11,874 bases of DNA from Deltaproteobacteria bacterium RBG_13_61_14 (GTDB taxonomy: Bacteria; RBG-13-61-14). Below are positions 1-11,874 of the stretch, one piece after another (position 1 is the first letter of the stretch; each line of letters opens with the position of its first letter). The DNA is taken from positions 20,673 to 32,546 of the forward strand of contig MGQK01000062.1 of assembly GCA_001797815.1 (NCBI GenBank), written 5' to 3'. Position numbers and translations under genes: made by a program. The notes beneath the pieces are model-generated. The model saw only the letters and a list, made by a program, of their open reading frames with translations. It did not search any database and had not been told where the DNA came from.

Positions 1-501
1 GGCGTTTGCCACCTGACCCACCTCTTCAACGGCATGAGCGGGGTGCACCACCGCACCCCGGGCGTGGCCGCGGCCGGACTGGTGCTCGAATCCGTCACCG
101 CCGACTTTATCTGCGACGGCGCTCACCTCGCGCCCGATATTGTCCGGCTGATCCTGCGCGCGCGCCGGCCGGAGCGTTTGCTCCTGATCACCGACCGGGT
201 CACCCTGGACGAGAGCGATTCCATTGAGCCCAACGTGCTGCCGGACGGCCGGCTGGCCGGAAGTCGGCTGACCCTGATCCGGGCCGTGCACAACCTGGTG
301 GAATTTACCGGGGTGGATTTACCGACCGCGGTGCGGATGGCCTCGCTCAATCCGGCGCGGCTTTTGGGAAGGGAAGCGCAATGGGGCAGCCTGGAGCCGG
401 GCAAGATGGCCGACCTATGCCTTTTGGATCCGGAGGGCGCGGTGCAAATGACGCTCTTGGAAGGCCGGGTGGTGTATCAGCGGGCCGCGACCGGAACTTG
501 A
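1..501 (+). CDS. nagA: N-acetylglucosamine-6-phosphate deacetylase, C-terminal part (5' end outside window)
   Basis: This is the last 166 residues of an amidohydrolase-superfamily enzyme that would remove the acetyl group from N-acetylglucosamine-6-phosphate in the cytoplasm, feeding amino sugars from cell-wall recycling or chitin into glycolysis. The reading frame is open from the first base of the window. Visible family marks are the metal-ligand stretch THLFN (residues 6-10 of the fragment), then HHRTPG (16-21), CDGAHLAPD (38-46), and LLLITD with the expected catalytic aspartate at codon 193-195. The C-terminal signature GSLEPGKMADLCLLDPEG is typical of the small beta-sandwich domain of amidohydrolases. 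Full-length NagA is about 380 residues, so a little over half is missing upstream. The TGA at 499-501 is followed by an imperfect GC-rich hairpin. Other amidohydrolases share parts of this pattern, but HLFN together with HHRTPG is specific to the NagA group. Confidence 0.9.
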   Translation, partial: GVCHLTHLFNGMSGVHHRTPGVAAAGLVLESVTADFICDGAHLAPDIVRLILRARRPERLLLITDRVTLDESDSIEPNVLPDGRLAGSRLTLIRAVHNLVEFTGVDLPTAVRMASLNPARLLGREAQWGSLEPGKMADLCLLDPEGAVQMTLLEGRVVYQRAATGT

Positions 502-1178: not shown

Positions 1179-2234
1179 ATGAAAGAACGAGCGGTATTCC
1201 CTTTCAGCGCGATCGTCGGCCAGGACAAAATGAAACTGGCCCTGATCCTCAATGCGATCAACCCCCGCCTCTCGGGCGTGTTGATCCGGGGCGAGAAAGG
1301 CACGGCCAAGTCCACCGCGGTGCGGGCGCTGGCCGCCCTGCTCCCGGAAATCGAGGTGGTGAAGGACTGCCCCTTCCGCTGCGACCCCCAGGCGCTGGAG
1401 AAGCTCTGTCCCCGGTGCCAAGAGACCCTGGCGGAACAGGGCCACCTCCATCCGCTCCGGGAAAAGATGCGGGTGGTGGACCTGCCGATCAATGCCACCG
1501 AAGACCGGGTGGTGGGCACCCTCGACCTGGAGCACGCCATCCAGAAAGGCGAGAAACGCTTCGAGCCGGGCGTGCTGGCCGATGCCAACCGCGGGATCCT
1601 GTATGTGGATGAGGTCAACCTGCTCGACGACCATATCGTGGACGTGCTGCTCGACTCCGCGGCCATGGGCGTCAACACCGTGGAGCGGGAAGGCGTGAGC
1701 TACACCCACCCGGCCGAGTTCATCCTGGTCGGCACCATGAACCCGGAAGAGGGGGAGCTCCGGCCCCAGCTCCTCGACCGCTTCGGACTGTGCGTGCACA
1801 TCTCCGGCATCACCAACCAGGCCCAGCGGGTGGAGATCGTCAAACGCTGGAGCGGATATGAACTGGACAGCGGCGCCTTTTCCATGGAATGGCAGGCGCA
1901 GGAACATCAGTTGGCCGAGCGAATTCTGGCCGCCCGCCGGATTTTTCCCCAGGTGGTGATCGCGGATGAGATCCTGATCCGCATCGCCAACATTGCCATC
2001 GCCCTTTCTGTGGACGGCCATCGCTCGGACCTGGTGATGATGAAAGCGGCCAAGACCATCGCGGCCTTTCACAGCCGGACCGTGGTCGAGCCGAGTGACG
2101 TGGACGAGTGCGTGGACCTGGCGTTGTCCCACCGGATGCGCAAGCGTCCCTTCGAGGAAATGGTGATTGACCCGAAACGGATCGAAGAGATGATTGCGGA
2201 ACGGATGAGCAGCCGGGCCTCGTCCCGCTACTGA
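1179..2234 (+). CDS. Chelatase-type AAA+ ATPase (BchI/ChlI-like subunit)
   Basis: This 351-residue protein is full length for the Mg-chelatase subunit I family. In that family an AAA+ ring hydrolyses ATP with a VWA-containing D subunit to drive metal insertion into a tetrapyrrole by a large H/CobN subunit. Walker A is GEKGTAKST (38-46), Walker B ILYVDEV (140-146), the sensor-1 region [13 protein letters not shown] follows, the arginine finger in LLDRFG is R201, and sensor 2 is GHRSD (R282). The pre-sensor insert [10 protein letters not shown] (107-116) is a BchI hallmark. A CX3CX8CX2C cluster (C64, C68, C77, C80) sits between Walker A and Walker B. The ATG at 1179 has a weak AGGT eight bases upstream, and the family-conserved FPFSAIVGQ begins at residue 7, so the start fits. 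Eleven bases downstream lies its AAA+/VWA partner, whose N-terminal half is a clear paralogue. The substrate metal and macrocycle are unknown because no H/CobN gene is present. Confidence 0.88.
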
Positions 2235-2245
2235 AGTTCGCGACC

Positions 2246-4396
2246 TTGAAAGCGCAAGCCTTACACCCTTCGCGCTCGGGCGCGCCCCGCTACCGGCCCC
2301 CGGTTTATCCTTTTACCGCCCTGGTGGGACAGGAGCTGATGAAGAAGGCCCTGGTCCTCAACGCCGTCAACCGCCAGCTCTGCGGCGTGTTGATCCGGGG
2401 CGACAAGGGGACCGCCAAGTCCACCGCGGTCCGCGGGCTGGCGGCCCTGCTGCCGGCCCTGGAACTAGTGGCGGACTGCCCCTTTCACTGCGACCCCCAC
2501 GACCCGCTCTGGATGTGTTTCCGCTGCCGGGAACGGCTCCGCGCCGGGGAAATGCTGCCGAAGGAGACGGCGCCGGTCCGGGTGGTGGAGCTTCCCCTCA
2601 ACACCACCGAGGACCGTCTGGTCGGAAGCCTGGACTTCGAGCACGCGCTTTTGACCGGCACCAAGCGGTTTCAGCCCGGGCTCCTGGCCGAAGCCAACCG
2701 GGGCATCATTTATATTGACGAGGTCAACCTGCTCGAGGACCACCTGGTGGATATCCTGCTCGACACCGCGGTCACCGGCATCAACCTGGTGGAGCGGGAG
2801 AGCGTGAGCTTCATCCACCCGGCGCGCTACATCCTGATCGCCACCATGAACCCGGAGGAAGGCGATATCCGGCCGCAACTGCTCGACCGCTTCGGCCTCT
2901 CGGTGAACATCGAAGGGATCTTCATGCCGGCAGTGCGCATGCAAATCGCCCGCCGGCGCGAGGCGTTCGACCTGGATGCCCGGAGTTTTCGGAAAAAGTG
3001 GTCGGCGGTGGAGGACCGGCTGCAGGCCCGGATCCAAGAAGCGGAAAGACGCTTGCCTCGGGTGCAGATCGGGGAGGACCTGTTCCGGGAGATTTCCCTG
3101 ATCGCCGCGGCCCATCACGTGGCCGGTCACCGGGCCGACATCATGATGGAAAAGACCGCCCGCACCCTGGCCGCTTTTGCCGGCCGGGAATGGGTGATGG
3201 GGGACGACCTGATCGAAGCCGCGGAGCTGGTGCTGCCGCACCGGGCGCGCTCGCCGGAGGAAGCGGCCCGGAACGGGGACCAATCCACCCAGGAGCAGAC
3301 CCAGCCGGGCGAAAGCCCAGCGCCGGAGCAGCCCGGCAGTGAAAGCGGCCAGGAAGCAGGAGGCGAGGGCAAAGACCCTTCTGCGACGGGATCGCCCAGC
3401 GAGGGTCAGCCCCGCGAGGGCGAGGAGCAGCCGGGGCAACCCGTGCCCCAACCCGGGAATGCCGATCAAACGGCCGGCGGAGAGCAGCAGGCCTTTGAGG
3501 ATCGCCTGTTCGAGATCGGCCGGCTCGTGTCCATTCCCACCTACGATATCCGTTTCGCCCGGGACAGCTTGAAGCGGCGGTCGAGCGGCCGGCGGACCAC
3601 CACCACCACCGACAACAAGACCGGCCGATACGTGCGCGCCACCGAGGTGCGCCGGAACAACGACCTGGCCTTTGACGCCACCTTGCGGGCGGCGGCCCCG
3701 TTTCAGCGCCGGCGGCCGGCGAGTCGGTTGGCGGTCAAGATCGAGGAGTCGGACATCCGGGAAAAGGTCCGGCAGAAAAAGACCTCGAACCTGCTCCTCT
3801 TCCTGGTGGACGCCAGCGGGAGCATGGGCACCCGCCTGATGAGCGAGACCAAGGGCGCGATCCTGGCGCTTCTGCTCGAGGCCTACCAGAAACGGGACAA
3901 GGTGGGGTTGATCGCCTTCAAGGGGATTGAAGCCGAGGTGCTCTTGCCGCCGACCAACTCGATCGAGATCGCGAAAAGGCTGTTGGAGGAACTGCCCACC
4001 GGCGGGAAGACCCCCTTGGGCGAGGGCTTGCTCACCGCCTATCAACTGCTCAAGAACCAGATGCGGCAAGACCCGAATATCCTGCCGCTGTTGGTGGTGG
4101 TCACGGACGGCCGCGCCAACGTGGGGCTGTTCCGGGACAAGTTTTACGACGGTCCCCAGTTCGGCGAGATCTACCGGGAGATTTACCAGATCTGCGATCT
4201 CTTCCGGCAGGAAAGGACGATCCGGGCGGTGGTGGTGGACGCGGAAGAGAAGCGGTTGGGCAGTTTCGGCCGGAGCAAGAAATTAGCCGAGGCCCTGAAC
4301 GCAAAGTATTACGTCTTGGAAGAAGTGCTCAGCGAACACCTGGTCGAGACGGTGCGTGAGAGTCGAGGGAATTCGGACCCTCATTATTCCAAATGA
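2246..4396 (+). CDS. Chelatase-type AAA+ / VWA protein (BchD/ChlD or putative cobaltochelatase subunit)
   Basis: The 716-residue protein has three parts. Residues 21-335 are an AAA+ module with Walker A GDKGTAKST (52-60), a Cys cluster C78/C82/C91/C94, Walker B IIYIDEV (154-160), sensor-1 N202, arginine finger R215 and sensor-2 GHRAD (294-298). Residues 335-415 are a Pro/Glu/Gln/Gly-rich linker. Residues 430-700 form the BchD-type C-terminus with RGRYVRA-like and DATLRAAAPFQ motifs and a VWA domain whose MIDAS is complete: DASGS 522-526, T589 and D621. The family drives metal insertion into tetrapyrroles. Classical BchD has a degenerate ATPase half, whereas this one looks intact, resembling the BchI-BchD fusion type predicted to serve CobN in species lacking CobS/CobT. 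The start is TTG at 2246 with a weak GAAG upstream; an upstream in-frame stop at 2168 and the absence of ATG/GTG leave only TTG or CTG (2231). A VWA-AAA+ machine with another target cannot be excluded. Confidence 0.85.
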   Translation: MKAQALHPSRSGAPRYRPPVYPFTALVGQELMKKALVLNAVNRQLCGVLIRGDKGTAKSTAVRGLAALLPALELVADCPFHCDPHDPLWMCFRCRERLRAGEMLPKETAPVRVVELPLNTTEDRLVGSLDFEHALLTGTKRFQPGLLAEANRGIIYIDEVNLLEDHLVDILLDTAVTGINLVERESVSFIHPARYILIATMNPEEGDIRPQLLDRFGLSVNIEGIFMPAVRMQIARRREAFDLDARSFRKKWSAVEDRLQARIQEAERRLPRVQIGEDLFREISLIAAAHHVAGHRADIMMEKTARTLAAFAGREWVMGDDLIEAAELVLPHRARSPEEAARNGDQSTQEQTQPGESPAPEQPGSESGQEAGGEGKDPSATGSPSEGQPREGEEQPGQPVPQPGNADQTAGGEQQAFEDRLFEIGRLVSIPTYDIRFARDSLKRRSSGRRTTTTTDNKTGRYVRATEVRRNNDLAFDATLRAAAPFQRRRPASRLAVKIEESDIREKVRQKKTSNLLLFLVDASGSMGTRLMSETKGAILALLLEAYQKRDKVGLIAFKGIEAEVLLPPTNSIEIAKRLLEELPTGGKTPLGEGLLTAYQLLKNQMRQDPNILPLLVVVTDGRANVGLFRDKFYDGPQFGEIYREIYQICDLFRQERTIRAVVVDAEEKRLGSFGRSKKLAEALNAKYYVLEEVLSEHLVETVRESRGNSDPHYSK

Positions 4397-5361: not shown

Positions 5362-6581
5362 TTAGAGAAAGCACCGGCCCAAGCCCCGGTAAGTGGGGAC
5401 CCGATCCTTCACCCTTCCCTCTCGGATCAAGAGCGCCTCGTTAAATCGTTCCATCAGTTCGCCGGCCTTGGCATGACGAAAAATGACGGGATCGCCCGGT
5501 TGGAGGCGAGGCGCGCCCGGAGAAAGGCGCAACGGGGTCTGGACCTCGCCGGCGCCTTCCAGGCTGAGCAACTGCAGACCCGGAGGGGAATGGGGGATGG
5601 GCAGCTTGTCCGGGCTGGAGGGGCCACTGGCCACGTAGCCGCCGCCCAGGCAGGTAACCAGACCGGGGTCAGAGACGCGCACCACCTGCAGGGCGAAAAA
5701 GGCGGCGGGGTGCAGGCGCAGGGAGCGGAAATAGCTAAAGAGGTGCGAGCAGTAAAACCCGGAGCCGGCGGTGACCTCGGTGACCGCGGACTCCCGGGGG
5801 GTCGAGTCCAGGCTGCCGGTGCCTCCGCCGTTGAAGAACTCGAACTGGATCCCTTCCCGCCGCAGCCGTTCCGCCACTTGCTCGCGTTTTCGCGCCACGT
5901 CCGGCCGGGAGAACCATTTCACCGCGCGGGCGACCGGGTTCATCAGGCTGGTGAAAGGATCGCGATCCGGCACGCCGGCAATCTGGGCCTCGTAACCCTT
6001 GAGACCTACCACCCGGACTCCGCCGAGCTTTTCCGCCTGCCGGATCAACTCCAGCACCCGCCGGGCGTCGCGGACCGGCGAGCGCCGGGCCCCGACATGG
6101 ACCCTGCCCCGGCCACGACGGTAACTCACGTCCAGTTCCACCGCGGCCCGCAGGATCACTCCTCGCTCCCGGCCGACCCGGGAAAGCGCTTGCAAATGGA
6201 CTTCGGAGTCCACCACCAGGCAAACCCGGGCGCCCTGCCCGGTCAGTTTTGGGCCAGGCTATTTAGATCCGAGTCTTGAACGGTGGGGTAAGCGACCAAG
6301 AGGTCGTCAAAGCCCTGTTCCGCCAGGAAGGCGGCCTCGGCGACGGTAAAACACATGACCCCTTGCGCGAGGCCGCGGCTTCTTTCCATAAGGTAACGCA
6401 GGAGGGAGGGCACGCGCAACGATTTGGAGGCGATCCGGAGGGTCTTGCCGCTCGCCCGGACCGGCGCCAGGATCCATTCGAGATTGGCCTCCAGAGCATC
6501 CAGATGGACGAGGGCGGCCGGGAGCCGCTCCTGGGGGGGGGAGAGGGCGGCGCGGAAGTGGTCGTAGTCGAGGGGTTGCAT
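5362..6581 (-). pseudogene. Amino acid deaminase/aldolase (D-threonine aldolase-like, PLP fold type III), broken by a frameshift
   Basis: Two - strand frames together encode one protein of about 406 residues. The N-terminal part (6581 down to about 6250) has YDHFRAAL, VHLDALEANLEWIL and IASKSLRVPSLLRYL, whose lysine should carry pyridoxal phosphate, then LLVAYPTVQ. The C-terminal part (about 6249 to 5362) continues with VCLVVDSEVHL, HVGARRSPVR, GYEAQIAGV, FFNGGGTGS, AVTEVTAGSGFY, CLGGGYVASGP, GAGEVQTPL, FRHAKAGELMERF and VPTYRGLGRCFL. This is the order of an alanine-racemase N-terminal barrel plus D-serine dehydratase-like C-terminal domain. The first frame stops at 6243-6245. Adding one A in the AAAA run (TTTT 6247-6250 on +) would join the halves smoothly. 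No ATG starts the second half. I chose ATG 6581 because the family-like sequence begins there; a TTG at 6605 would lie in the terminator hairpin, although GGAGAAGGGG stands 11 bases before it. It may be a real pseudogene or an assembly error. Confidence 0.82.
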
Positions 6582-6587
6582 GGCCGG

Positions 6588-6636
6588 AAAAAGGCGCCGG
6601 CCCAAGGATCAAGTGACCCCTTCTCCGGCCGGCGCC
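6588..6636 (-). terminator. Intrinsic terminator of the large exported protein gene
   Basis: Read on the - strand, GGCGCCGGCC (6636-6627) pairs perfectly with GGCCGGCGCC (6602-6593) over 10 GC base pairs and is followed at once by TTTTT (6592-6588). It starts 10 bases after the stop codon of the 6647-10930 gene. The 24-base loop is long for a terminator and contains GGAGAAGGGG, which resembles a ribosome-binding site for the next gene. It may therefore also influence expression of the deaminase/aldolase. Confidence 0.65.
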
Positions 6637-6646
6637 CCGGGTTGCT

Positions 6647-9600
6647 TCAGGGAGAGAAAGTTTCTTTTCGGAACAGGCGCCACCCGATCCCGATCAGGAG
6701 CGGAATGGCGATGACGATGACGCTGAGGATCATCCCGCGCTGGTTCTGCTCCTGAAGCGAGGCTGAGCCGGCCACGTCAAAGCAAGCGCCGGCCGGCACC
6801 TGGCCCTTGCGAACGGCAACGCCAATCCAGGCCCGCGCATCCGGGCCGAACCATGCCCCACTCATTCCCTTCACATCGCCGATGAGCGTTTCAAAACGGG
6901 TGAAGAACATCTCGTAACTGTCTCCCTGCCCCTTGGCCAGGGTGGGGTTCCGATATTTATCTTCCGGAACTCCCCCGCTCACCATACTATCCACGGCGTT
7001 TTGCAGGTTGATCACCAAATTGCCGAGATCATAGGCCACATCCCACTGCCTGGCGTCTAACGACCTGGCCAAGCCGACGTTGTAATTGAACTCCTCCTGC
7101 ACCAGTTCTATGTCCCCCGGAGGTCTGTCGGTTGACTCTTGAGTGGAGGCCGAGGACAAGCCCGAAAAGAGCATAACGAAGATAGGCTGGCCGTCACTTT
7201 GTTCGTGGTAGATATAAGTGTCGGAACTAAAGGCGCCATTGTAATTCGGGGAATTTTGGGCGGAGGGCAAGGCTAAGTCTAAATCAATGGGCATCTCGAC
7301 GGATTTGGCGCAATACTTTCCCAAGTCAATCACGGGCTTGGGGTGCTTGTCCCAATCGGTGGGATCCGCTTGAATTCGTTGAATCGTGGAGGTGGCGACG
7401 CCGATCCGGGTGGCCAGCAGGACTCCCTGGTTGTTGTCGAGAGCATGGCGGAAGCCATAACGCGGAGCGCCGACATCGTTCACCAGGGTCCGCTCATAGA
7501 TGGTTGTGGAAATATAGGGCGGGGAAGTTTGCCACTTAGCTTCATAAACCACCTCTTTTTTTCCCCAGAGGTGGTCCATCCCGGACCGGTCGCATTCCCC
7601 GATCTTCGCCAACGAACCCCGGTCCGGGCGCCAACTGGGAGGAATCTGAGCCCAGCCCAGGCCGGTGTAAAACAGATAGAGCCGGTCTCCATCGCGCACG
7701 ACATCCGGATAACCGACCTGATAGGCGTCAAAGCCGGTGACCTCGTCGGACCGGAAAAGCTGCGTATCGTTACCCTGGGCCCGGGTATCTGCGATCCCGT
7801 CTCCTCCGGCCAGCACACAAGGCCAGTCGGGCTTGCCCGTTCCCAGGAAGACCTGCACCTGGTCATCCCCCAGTGCGAAACTATTGCTGATCCCGTCGGG
7901 CCCGGTATTGATTTTGCGGAGGGGGCGGTCATTAGTTATGGGGATCACCTCCAGTTCATCGGCCAAAGCGATGGTGTCCAGAGCCCGGTTCGGTCCGGGA
8001 AGGATAATCGGCTGATCGGCTAATCCGCGCAAGTGCGGAATCAATTGCTTGTCCACCGAGACCGAGCAGGTTTGATTGATCCCATTGGCGCCGGTGCTGA
8101 TGTAATATTCCTGCAGGACCGGATCCCAGTGGACCTCGTCATCAAACATCACTCCCTCGTTCCGATACAGAGTAAAGATTTTTTCCACGGTCTCGCCGAA
8201 AGAGTCTTGCTTCTTTTGGACTTCCAGATAATAGCAATCGTTCGGCGCGCCCGAATAGTTTCTCAGAAGGTCTTCGTAGTCATCGTATTCTTCCACCACA
8301 AAGCGCCGGCTGAGCGCATAAGACTGGAAATAGCCGTTCTGGCCGGGACAGATGGCGATCTGATTCCCGATCACGCACATCTCGTCGTCAAAGTCGGTAA
8401 AGAGGTCGGCCTTGCCGAAAACAACGGGCAGGAAGCCTAACGCCGGACTTTTATAGGCGGAGATATCGGAAAAATACAACGTATATAGAGATTGGAGCTG
8501 ATAGTCATCGCCCGGACAAATGGCGGCACACCCCGAAACCGGACAATAAAGATCCACTTCGGAGGGATCCACGCACGAGCAGCAGACATCGCCGTCTTGT
8601 TCCGGGGGCAGGGGGGGGCAGGTTGGGGGGCACGCGACCCCGACGGTGCTGACTTCCGTGATGTTGATAAAAGTATCAATCACCACCGTTTCGAGAACAC
8701 CATCCGGGCCGGGACAGATCCCCACTTCCTCGGTCCCTAACACCGGATCGCTTTGGATGCAAAGCTCATCATCTCCCCGCAACGGGAGGTAAAGGTCTGC
8801 CCAACTGAAGGTTCCATCCGGGCCCGGACAAATGCCCGCCTTGGGCCCGGCATGGCAAAGTTGGTCATCCCCTTGATCCTTTAAAATCTGCACGATGGTA
8901 TCGAGGCGGCCGTCGGCGCCCGGCCGAACCGCGACGGTATCGGGAATCCCCATCGCGCAGCGGTTGAAATTGTCGCCGAGTTGAAAGAACACGCAGTTAT
9001 GGTTGCGCCAGTATTCCGCGGGGGTCACGGTCAATGCCGGCGCCCAGACGTCGTCGCCCAGCAGGTAGGCATTGTCGTCGTTGGCGCCGGACACTGAATC
9101 CGCGCACATGACGTCAGGGTTGGCCGGTCCGCCGGCAGGGACCGTCACCTCCACGAGATGAAACGGCGCCCCGTAATGCAGGTGGCTGGGGACAAAGAAG
9201 GTGTTGATGATCCCGTCCGGCCCGGAAGTGATGAGATTGCGCCCCGGGTCCAGGACATCGGATTGGGGCGGCGTATCCAGCACGCTGTCTTCCCCAAAGG
9301 TGACCGCGACCGTGCGGGGATAGCCCCTGCAACCGACCGGCGTCCCCTTCACCGTGCACCGGTCCACCAACTGCAAGTCGCTGTTATCCGCCTGAGTCTC
9401 GCAATAGCCGTAAACCCCGCTGGCGACCACCGGGCTGTCGGGATCCGGGTTGTCTCCGGCCTGAATCGCCGGGCGGTGCTGAAACAGGTTGGAGAGATCC
9501 CAGTTCAGACCTTCCAGCCCGTCCAGGCTTTCCAACTGGTAAATGGCATCCCCGGCATTGATCCACATCCACAGCTTTGTTCCTCCCGGCGCCACAATCA

Positions 9601-10930
9601 GCGAAGGCGCTTCCTGCCCAAAGGAACGCACGTTGGTATCCTTCGCGGTCCAATATTCCCCGTCGTCCAGGTTCTCTTTGTCATCAATCTCCCAATATTG
9701 CATATTACCGTCTTGGACGCCGTTGTCCCCCACAAAGTCCCCGCACTTCTCGTTCACCCCCCAGTCGCCTTCGTCGCCGGTGCCGGCGATGCCGTCGCAA
9801 TCCGGAAAGACATCTTGAATGGGCGTTTTCTTATCATCGGGCTCGAAGGTTTTCCCGCCGTTGAGGGTGGAGTTCCCGCTGCGGGCGGGTTGCAAGTCTC
9901 CTCTCCGGATAAAAGCCCGCTCCGGGAGGGGGGTGGTGTCCGGGTAGGGGGTGGTGATGGACTCGCTGGACAGAAAAATTTGGGAGTTTTTTTTGTATTT
10001 AGCATCTGTGCAGTTGGTCGGAAACTGTCCGGCGTTGAGATCCTCGAGCTTCAGGAAATAAGTGCCCGGACGGGTGAAAAAGTAGGCGATCTCCGCGTCT
10101 TCAAAAGTATTCATATCAAAACCGGCGTGGCTTTGAGCCAGAACCGTGGTCCCGTCCTGGTCGAACAAGGTCAACAGCAGCGAGAGATATCGGGCCATAA
10201 AATATTGATACCCTGCGGTGCGGAAATGGACTATGGTGTTTTCGCGGGGGACGATAAAAGCCAAAACATCCACATCGGTGGTATTCCCATCCATGGAGTA
10301 GTAACAACCATCACCAGGGGGACAAACCCCCCCACCGATGCTGCAACCCTGTTGAAAGCCCGGGACCATATAGCTGTTCAAATCCATATAAACCGGAGGA
10401 TCAGAGGTGGTGTCCGGGATTGAGTCCACATTGTAATCCTCTTGGGGCGATGAGTTGGGAGGGGGGAGGTAGGAAGGCAAAATGGCAAACGGTTGGTTCG
10501 TGAAATACAGTTTGAGTTGGTCGTCCACCACCAGGGCTTCCGGATGATCGGAGGCTCCCCGTTGTTTGCGGGCATCGTCCAACACATTAAGATCCCGGTA
10601 GAAAAAGTATTGATTGGGATTATCCGAGCCGTCGCCGAGGTGAAGGTAGTTATAATCGAGTCGGAGATCAGGAAAACGGGAGGGCAAGAATTCTTCACCC
10701 AAAATGTAGGGGATGGTCTTGGCATCCAGGGTGTAGACTTTCCCATCGCCCACCTGGTACTCTATGAACTTGGCATATACCGTGTCTTGAGGCGGCATGT
10801 CCTTGGCCTCGGTGGGCCGGTCCGCGGGCGTACACCCCCAGACGGCCAAAACCGCCATGCCACATAAAATCAAAGCCTTTGCCCAAAGCTCCCCGTCCCG
10901 GAAATACCTCATTTGCATCCTAAGCTTCAT
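6647..10930 (-). CDS. Large exported, membrane-anchored protein with GPDG repeats and beta-propeller-like segments
   Basis: I do not recognise a named family for this 1427-residue protein. The start is firm: GAGGAGGG six bases before the ATG at 10930. Residues 1-33 form an export signal ending in LAVWGC, a lipobox-like site (C33) with an unusual Trp at -2. Residues 205-300 look like a pre-peptidase-type beta-sandwich (TVLAQSHAGFD, PGTYFLKLED). Residues 442-460 and 1074-1346 carry motifs of five-bladed GH32/GH43-like propellers (YPDVVRDGDRLYLFYTG, DPTDWDKHPKPVID, VGLARSLDARQWD, RNPTLAKG). Between them, residues 570-1055 hold about nine GPDG...DD repeats and an eight-cysteine insert (767-805). 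Residues 1400-1420 form a hydrophobic helix followed by RLFRK at the very C-terminus. The protein is therefore likely on the cell surface or in the periplasm, anchored at one or both ends. It lies 39 bases after a beta-barrel protein gene, probably in one operon. No catalytic site can be assigned. Confidence 0.85.
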   Translation of the reverse strand: MKLRMQMRYFRDGELWAKALILCGMAVLAVWGCTPADRPTEAKDMPPQDTVYAKFIEYQVGDGKVYTLDAKTIPYILGEEFLPSRFPDLRLDYNYLHLGDGSDNPNQYFFYRDLNVLDDARKQRGASDHPEALVVDDQLKLYFTNQPFAILPSYLPPPNSSPQEDYNVDSIPDTTSDPPVYMDLNSYMVPGFQQGCSIGGGVCPPGDGCYYSMDGNTTDVDVLAFIVPRENTIVHFRTAGYQYFMARYLSLLLTLFDQDGTTVLAQSHAGFDMNTFEDAEIAYFFTRPGTYFLKLEDLNAGQFPTNCTDAKYKKNSQIFLSSESITTPYPDTTPLPERAFIRRGDLQPARSGNSTLNGGKTFEPDDKKTPIQDVFPDCDGIAGTGDEGDWGVNEKCGDFVGDNGVQDGNMQYWEIDDKENLDDGEYWTAKDTNVRSFGQEAPSLIVAPGGTKLWMWINAGDAIYQLESLDGLEGLNWDLSNLFQHRPAIQAGDNPDPDSPVVASGVYGYCETQADNSDLQLVDRCTVKGTPVGCRGYPRTVAVTFGEDSVLDTPPQSDVLDPGRNLITSGPDGIINTFFVPSHLHYGAPFHLVEVTVPAGGPANPDVMCADSVSGANDDNAYLLGDDVWAPALTVTPAEYWRNHNCVFFQLGDNFNRCAMGIPDTVAVRPGADGRLDTIVQILKDQGDDQLCHAGPKAGICPGPDGTFSWADLYLPLRGDDELCIQSDPVLGTEEVGICPGPDGVLETVVIDTFINITEVSTVGVACPPTCPPLPPEQDGDVCCSCVDPSEVDLYCPVSGCAAICPGDDYQLQSLYTLYFSDISAYKSPALGFLPVVFGKADLFTDFDDEMCVIGNQIAICPGQNGYFQSYALSRRFVVEEYDDYEDLLRNYSGAPNDCYYLEVQKKQDSFGETVEKIFTLYRNEGVMFDDEVHWDPVLQEYYISTGANGINQTCSVSVDKQLIPHLRGLADQPIILPGPNRALDTIALADELEVIPITNDRPLRKINTGPDGISNSFALGDDQVQVFLGTGKPDWPCVLAGGDGIADTRAQGNDTQLFRSDEVTGFDAYQVGYPDVVRDGDRLYLFYTGLGWAQIPPSWRPDRGSLAKIGECDRSGMDHLWGKKEVVYEAKWQTSPPYISTTIYERTLVNDVGAPRYGFRHALDNNQGVLLATRIGVATSTIQRIQADPTDWDKHPKPVIDLGKYCAKSVEMPIDLDLALPSAQNSPNYNGAFSSDTYIYHEQSDGQPIFVMLFSGLSSASTQESTDRPPGDIELVQEEFNYNVGLARSLDARQWDVAYDLGNLVINLQNAVDSMVSGGVPEDKYRNPTLAKGQGDSYEMFFTRFETLIGDVKGMSGAWFGPDARAWIGVAVRKGQVPAGACFDVAGSASLQEQNQRGMILSVIVIAIPLLIGIGWRLFRKETFSP
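7766..9223 (-). repeat. Degenerate protein repeat array, about 32 residues per unit (GPDGxxxT...GDD)
   Basis: Within residues 570-1055 of the large exported protein, copies of G[PAQG][DN]G occur at residues 570, 671, 703, 741, 863, 947, 979 (GPNR), 1010 and 1042. Neighbouring copies are 32, 38, 32, 31 and 32 residues apart, and most larger gaps are near multiples of that step. Most copies are followed by an acidic pair (GDD, DE or GND) 11 or 16 residues later. At DNA level CCATCCGGGCC(C/G)GGACA recurs near 8700 and 8814, with related forms near 7895, 8334 and 9213. Confidence 0.75.
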
Positions 10931-10969: not shown

Positions 10970-11874
10970 TTAATACCACCACGTCAGTTGAATACCCGTG
11001 TTAAGGATCTCGCCCTCGGTATGATAATAGTAGACCGAAGAAGATCCGCGAACATTGCCCCACTCGTTGTATTCCAGCTTGTAGTCGCGATCCTCGATAT
11101 CAAAATATTGAAAATGGACATCCACCGAAAACTGACGGCGGGTGGATGGGTCCTTCAGGGGTTTGCGGCCTTTCCGGTCCAGATTGAAACCCAAGCCTCC
11201 CGAATAGACATCCGCGTCGCTGTCGAAATCATCCCCCATCTTTTGGTCGGACAAGGGAGAGTCCCAGTGAAAATAGCCGCCCCGCAGGGCGATTTTGGGA
11301 TTACGTTCCTTCAGGAACTTGGTCGGAAGCCACCCCGCTTCCAGGACATATTCCATCCCATACCGGTCAAGGGAGACATTTTTCCAGTCCGCGGTTGGCC
11401 CCCCCCCAATAAGCTGGATCAAACTAGCGACATCGGGCTGGGTCCACCGAAGATATTGTTTCAGGGTTTCTTCGTGCATGCGATGCCAGAACTGCTGGTC
11501 CTGAGTATAGGAAAGGGTGAGCTTGCTTTTGGGCAAAGGCAAATGGACCGCGGCCCCCCATTGCTCCTTATCCGGAGTATTCCAAAAATCCCCAAGGACA
11601 TAAAGACGTATGTCGTCATCCAGGAGACTTTCGGAGGTAATAATCACCGGGATTTTGTATCGGACCCAGGAGCCCGGCTTCCGCACATAACCCAGGCTGA
11701 GGTATTTGACCGGCCTGAAGGTAACGCTCCATCCCACGTCTCCGGGTTCCATGGCTATCGCTACATACCAGTGCGGATTGATATTCGGCACCGGGATCCC
11801 GGTCGAAAGTCCGAGGAACAATTCTAAAACATCATCCAGATTGAGCGTCAAATCGGAGAACTTGGTCAGCCAGA
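10970..11874 (-). CDS. Outer-membrane beta-barrel protein, partial (5' end outside window)
   Basis: The frame stays open through the upstream window edge, so at least 301 residues of a longer protein are seen, ending at TAA 10972-10970. Alternating polar/hydrophobic strands with many aromatic residues (WYVAIAMEP, LSLGYVRKPG, LRGGYFHW, VYSGGLGFNLDRKG, QFSVDVHFQYFDIEDRDYKL), together with a C-terminal strand ending in GIQLTWWY, are typical of Gram-negative outer-membrane barrels recognised by the BAM machinery. The pattern of strands introduced by RPVKYLSLGY recalls long-chain fatty acid transporter (FadL/OmpP1)-type barrels, but I cannot confirm that family. The missing N-terminus should hold the signal peptide. 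The gene lies 39 bases upstream of the large exported protein gene in the same direction, so the two may form a surface assembly. A run of nine G on the coding strand (C at 11399-11407) lies inside the coding region. Confidence 0.75.
   Translation of the reverse strand, partial: WLTKFSDLTLNLDDVLELFLGLSTGIPVPNINPHWYVAIAMEPGDVGWSVTFRPVKYLSLGYVRKPGSWVRYKIPVIITSESLLDDDIRLYVLGDFWNTPDKEQWGAAVHLPLPKSKLTLSYTQDQQFWHRMHEETLKQYLRWTQPDVASLIQLIGGGPTADWKNVSLDRYGMEYVLEAGWLPTKFLKERNPKIALRGGYFHWDSPLSDQKMGDDFDSDADVYSGGLGFNLDRKGRKPLKDPSTRRQFSVDVHFQYFDIEDRDYKLEYNEWGNVRGSSSVYYYHTEGEILNTGIQLTWWY

Follow-up and report, generated by a model that had tools for sequence, protein, structure and literature searches.

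A two-unit Gly/Asp-rich repeat array in large exported proteins, often encoded beside FadL-family barrel genes

The 11,874-nucleotide stretch of DNA analysed here (the window) encodes on its reverse strand a protein of 1427 residues (P0001, 6647..10930) along which a glycine-rich turn seems to recur. Is this a genuine repeat, and if so, what kind of module does it build and what might that module do? The repeat in P0001 is real and goes beyond composition. All nine G[PAQG][DN]G turns listed in a first-pass annotation are present, at residues 570, 671, 703, 741, 863, 947, 979, 1010 and 1042 (window 9223 down to 7807), one copy reading GPNR, and the strict pattern G[PAQGN][DN]G occurs eight times against 0.54 expected by shuffling (maximum 4 in 2000). 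The steps between the nine turns had been put at 31-38 residues; they are in fact 101, 32, 38, 122, 84, 32, 31 and 32, such that the proposed range describes the final block and one short stretch and fails elsewhere, with regular 31-32 spacing confined to the last four units. To avoid circularity, unit profiles were built only from non-orthologues of P0001, with 1000 shuffles as control. The profile of one unit type (A) scored 57.7 bits on P0001 (E 3.8e-20, one sequence) versus at most 9.1 bits for shuffled sequence, a significant internal repeat, and that of the other (B) scored 15.1 bits versus 8.8 for the best shuffle.

The units are unevenly laid out, all on the reverse strand. The main A-B-A-B block occupies residues 944-1060 (7751..8101), with units starting at 944, 976, 1007 and 1039 (steps 32, 31, 32), and is matched at E 2.1e-31 by a profile of 7 rows, one of which is the window unit itself. 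The array begins earlier than had been proposed: a partial array at residues 502-598 (9137..9427), with A at 502, B at 543 and A at 567, had been cut off, and is clearer in the orthologues of P0001, where the steps are 32 and 26. Between the two lie degenerate units with weak scores, three at residues 668-760 (GADGRLDT, GPDGTF and GPDGVLET; 8651..8929) and a single one at residues 860-880 (ICPGQNGYFQS; 8291..8353).

The proposal of two sub-types of unit is borne out, in the order A-B-A-B, and alternating A (32 residues) and B (23-31 residues) units of beta-rich character would build the module. The A-to-B distance is 32 residues in nearly all clear pairs across host proteins, while the B-to-A distance is 23 in cohesin proteins, 26 in a beta-helix protein of the genome G058 and 31 in P0001; an array on contig C317 of G058 is an irregular exception to this spacing. 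Across 14 arrays the unit core reads [IV]xxGx[ND]Gxx[DNE][TS]x(4-5)D. The acidic pair that had been described at +11 or +16 resolves instead into one near-invariant Asp that follows the first Gly at a distance of 12-13 residues and is preceded by a less conserved residue; this Asp is found in 53 of 54 aligned cells, and two further positions, +2 (N/D) and +7 (S/T), are each conserved in 51 of the 54, although the 14 rows were picked by profile and their conservation is thus partly selected. We hypothesize that these conserved Asp, Asn/Asp and Ser/Thr residues are candidate Ca ligands, which would suit Ca binding and would probably give each unit a Ca-stabilised turn.

A pattern of this kind invites comparison with established calcium-binding repeats. 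The Gx[ND]Gxx[DNE] core recalls DxDGxxD loops and is shared with those of bacterial TSP3 and dockerin EF-hands, which are likewise short Asp/Asn/Gly-rich units of exported proteins, and TSP3-like and dockerin-like segments even occur within the same polypeptides as the array. It is nevertheless very unlikely that the array is a highly diverged form of TSP3, FG-GAP, EF-hand/dockerin or RTX, as its units lack the leading DxDx, its period is a different one (32+23..31), the unit rows (set A2) match no Pfam family even at E 5, and the PDB offers no convincing fold match. The signature D.[DN].DG..D of TSP3, EF-hand and dockerin is absent from P0001 and from the repeat units, and a TSP3 identity was dropped for want of the DxDxDG pattern and of a Pfam match. 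RTX repeats are also Gly/Asp-rich and extracellular, but consist of GGxGxDxUx nonapeptides; with GG.G[ND]D absent from all twelve proteins, no Pfam match and no 9-residue period, an RTX identity was dropped as well.

That no named domain covers the repeat, as the first-pass annotation had supposed, agrees with searches of Pfam, NCBIfam and PDB sequences, none of which returned a match; a PDB profile search with the unit gave nothing useful and a literature search for the motif found nothing. An AlphaFold model of the main block, made with 14 rows, is moderately confident (pLDDT 77.6, pTM 0.63) and beta-rich, with short strands predicted ahead of the GxDG turn and following the conserved Asp. 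The best Foldseek E-value of this model against the PDB was 0.48, VIA-align gave no Z >= 2, and a viral fold library gave no match. On the model, then, the array appears to have no convincing counterpart among solved folds, which is not proof of a new one.

The protein that carries the array in the window looks exported, as had been suggested. P0001 begins with a signal peptide containing a lipobox (LAVWG-C33, 10832..10930) and ends in a hydrophobic segment (residues 1396-1420, 6671..6745) followed by the basic tail RLFRK; its orthologues in the genomes G001 and G002, at 37-43% identity, have the lipoboxes SGA-AC and SAGT-AC and a C terminus that is likewise hydrophobic plus basic. These features would fit a large lipid-anchored surface protein. 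The parts outside the array look propeller-like, a weak prediction from motifs recognised by eye. A propeller-blade-like four-strand segment (residues 427-470, 9521..9652), its strands seen in a poor model only, directly precedes the upstream array, and residues 1062-1385 (6776..7747), a conserved region that follows the main block, have blade-like motifs and no family match. At E 1, neither Pfam nor NCBIfam contained a family matching P0001; a PDB sequence search gave no meaningful match, and a PDB profile search with the region behind the array was of no use either; a GH43/GH32-like five-bladed propeller in particular was suggested by the blade-like motifs and had no Pfam or PDB match. An AlphaFold model of residues 181-1380 (1200 residues, with 3 further rows) reached a pLDDT of 27, and the propeller host is therefore putative. 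Residues 767-805 (~8516-8632, reverse strand) form a Cys-rich stretch, CPPTCPPLPP...CCSC...CPVSGCAAIC, that aligns poorly with the orthologues.

The first-pass annotation had mentioned similar repeats among proteins exported by environmental Gram-negative bacteria, and the repeat was indeed found in four genomes of rare environmental bacteria, with exported-looking hosts throughout. These four, out of 386 genomes sampled domain-wide, are the window's own (G000), G001 and G002 of the same order, and G058 (JAUYMQ01), a Deltaproteobacteria MAG; they encode two, four, two and at least two array proteins, respectively. A second domain-wide sample, centred on G058, largely drew the same genomes again. 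The repeat was absent from all 195 genomes scanned in the phylum to which G030 belongs (the RpoB proteins of G030 and G000 are 68% identical), and it was not found by phylum scans around G037 (7 genomes) and G035 (5) or by searches of plasmids, phages and viral contigs. A contig scan of genomes matched G058's own record only, using few peptide patterns, and occurrence may be wider. Apart from P0001 and its orthologues, the hosts are cohesin/dockerin giants, in which cohesin-like and dockerin-like segments directly precede the array, a 1640-residue protein and a beta-helix protein (L050/L049) apparently split over two contig ends, and the register of the repeat is identical in all of them. The second array protein of G000 (L041 3-9404, reverse strand) exceeds 3100 residues and runs off the contig end; it also contains TSP3-like DxDxDG repeats and a CglD-like region (NF033765, E 5e-36, below cut-off).

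Such a spread over unrelated hosts, apparently including the inside of the beta-helix protein, is what one would expect if the array were a mobile or selfish insert of coding DNA that had moved from gene to gene. We consider this highly improbable. Outside a few short stretches of up to 91% identity, the DNA of non-orthologous arrays is little alike (~66-79% identical), all profile matches fall within open frames uninterrupted by stops, and the block has been kept in place in orthologues, where in G002 it is 51% identical to that of P0001 compared with 38% for the whole protein; a mobile insert was disfavoured on these grounds. Because of the low DNA identity and the open frames, the array looks like the product of old protein-level evolution, and not of fresh DNA insertion. 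The module would be carried, as an insert or a linker, by differing exported proteins.

A further regularity lies in the neighbouring genes. Directly upstream of the P0001 gene, across a gap of 40 bp, is the C-terminal part of a gene for a FadL-like outer-membrane barrel (10970..11872, reverse strand), the full gene being L053 643-2073 on the same strand; the G000 copy contains an internal run of N, read as X in translation. A barrel gene occupies this position, with gaps of ~25-40 bp, in G000, G001 and G002, and the barrels of G000 and G002 share 37% identity. The Toluene_X family (PF03349) did not match the window fragment and matched the orthologues below cut-off (E 0.01-0.23), while a profile-profile comparison with bona fide FadL-family members gave 97.4% (E 1.3e-11), and the window-locus barrel is probably a remote FadL-like protein. 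Barrels at other array loci (C130 in G000, C165 in G001, C317 in G058) match PF03349 above cut-off, at E 6.6e-12 to 1.1e-19. At the cohesin/dockerin locus of G001 (C165) the FadL-family gene is directly upstream of the array gene, at that of G000 (C130) it is one gene further upstream with a TPR/CsgG-like gene between, and on C317 of G058 two FadL-family genes stand in a row upstream of the array gene. A conserved gene (L041 9501-11843, reverse strand, and L044 3-983, forward strand) lies within the FadL/array cluster of G000 and G001; the L041 copy is TPR/Glucodextran_B/CsgG-like.

FadL-family neighbours thus occur at three independent types of array locus in genomes with only about three FadL-family genes each, and in the four genomes every detected FadL-family gene is at an array locus except one on C53 of G000 and a weak match on C103 of G001. 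The chance of three independent loci is ~1e-8, a crude and merely indicative figure that assumes 4000 genes per genome and was calculated after the data had been seen. Since array genes often adjoin FadL-family barrel genes, a shared cell-surface display system is suggested.

The same evidence bears on two other interpretations. The array may be a structural spacer or loop decoration with no specific partner, its adjacency to FadL genes reflecting general surface-protein operons. A strict motif search of the flanking DNA at hand found no FadL-like gene beside the array genes on C207 of G001 or on C51 and C8 of G058; this absence of a visible neighbour, the drift in length of the B unit and the degeneracy of several units in P0001 would all suit a spacer. 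We think it somewhat doubtful, however, given that conservation in the main block exceeds that of the protein as a whole, that A-to-B spacing is nearly constant, and that the FadL-family genes, few in these genomes, are mostly at array loci. Alternatively, barrel and host could be a pair for uptake of hydrophobic compounds, in which a propeller-like lipoprotein captures a ligand for import through the barrel and the arrays do no more than stabilise this receptor. Members of the FadL/TodX family transport hydrophobic compounds, and the gene pair is conserved with short gaps, but at the other loci the array protein next to the barrel, either a cohesin/dockerin giant or a different large protein, is no homologue of P0001, which makes an uptake pair unlikely.

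The explanation we tentatively favour is that the array is an unnamed extracellular module, its turns probably Ca-stabilised, in proteins that may be handled or held at the surface with the FadL-family barrel of the adjacent gene, much as SprF holds SprB in Flavobacterium; for the barrel partnership it is gene adjacency that points this way. According to PMC9143113, PorP-like barrels are the binding partners of type B CTD proteins, SprB binding SprF and PG1035 binding PorP, such that in these Bacteroidota a large surface protein is paired with an outer-membrane beta-barrel; in the window the barrel gene is adjacent. The likeness is one of arrangement only. The window system differs in that SprA is unmatched, the barrel is FadL-like, and P0001 has a hydrophobic C-terminal segment instead of a recognisable CTD. 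SprA (TIGR04189) had no match in the four genomes, a weak test in which only one control genome gave a match; with no recognisable CTD either, type IX secretion was dropped. It is tempting to go further and regard the repeat as a new fold that serves as a portable handle for a FadL-barrel display or export route, distinct from type IX, in Deltaproteobacteria-like lineages, but this we consider decidedly unlikely. If the link to the barrel is true, these uncultured bacteria would place large proteins on their surface by means of a dedicated repeat module and a FadL-family barrel, FadL-like barrels would have a role beyond transport, and the repeat would be a marker with which to find such systems. 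At the least, this is a clean, unnamed repeat family worth its own profile.

Two other regions of the window deserve mention. On the forward strand, 1179-4396 holds a tandem pair of AAA genes of the Mg-chelatase type, and a VWA domain is fused to the second of them. On the reverse strand, an alanine-racemase-N-like gene (5362-6605) is broken near 6216-6243 into parts in different frames, which would fit a frameshift, whether natural or introduced in assembly.
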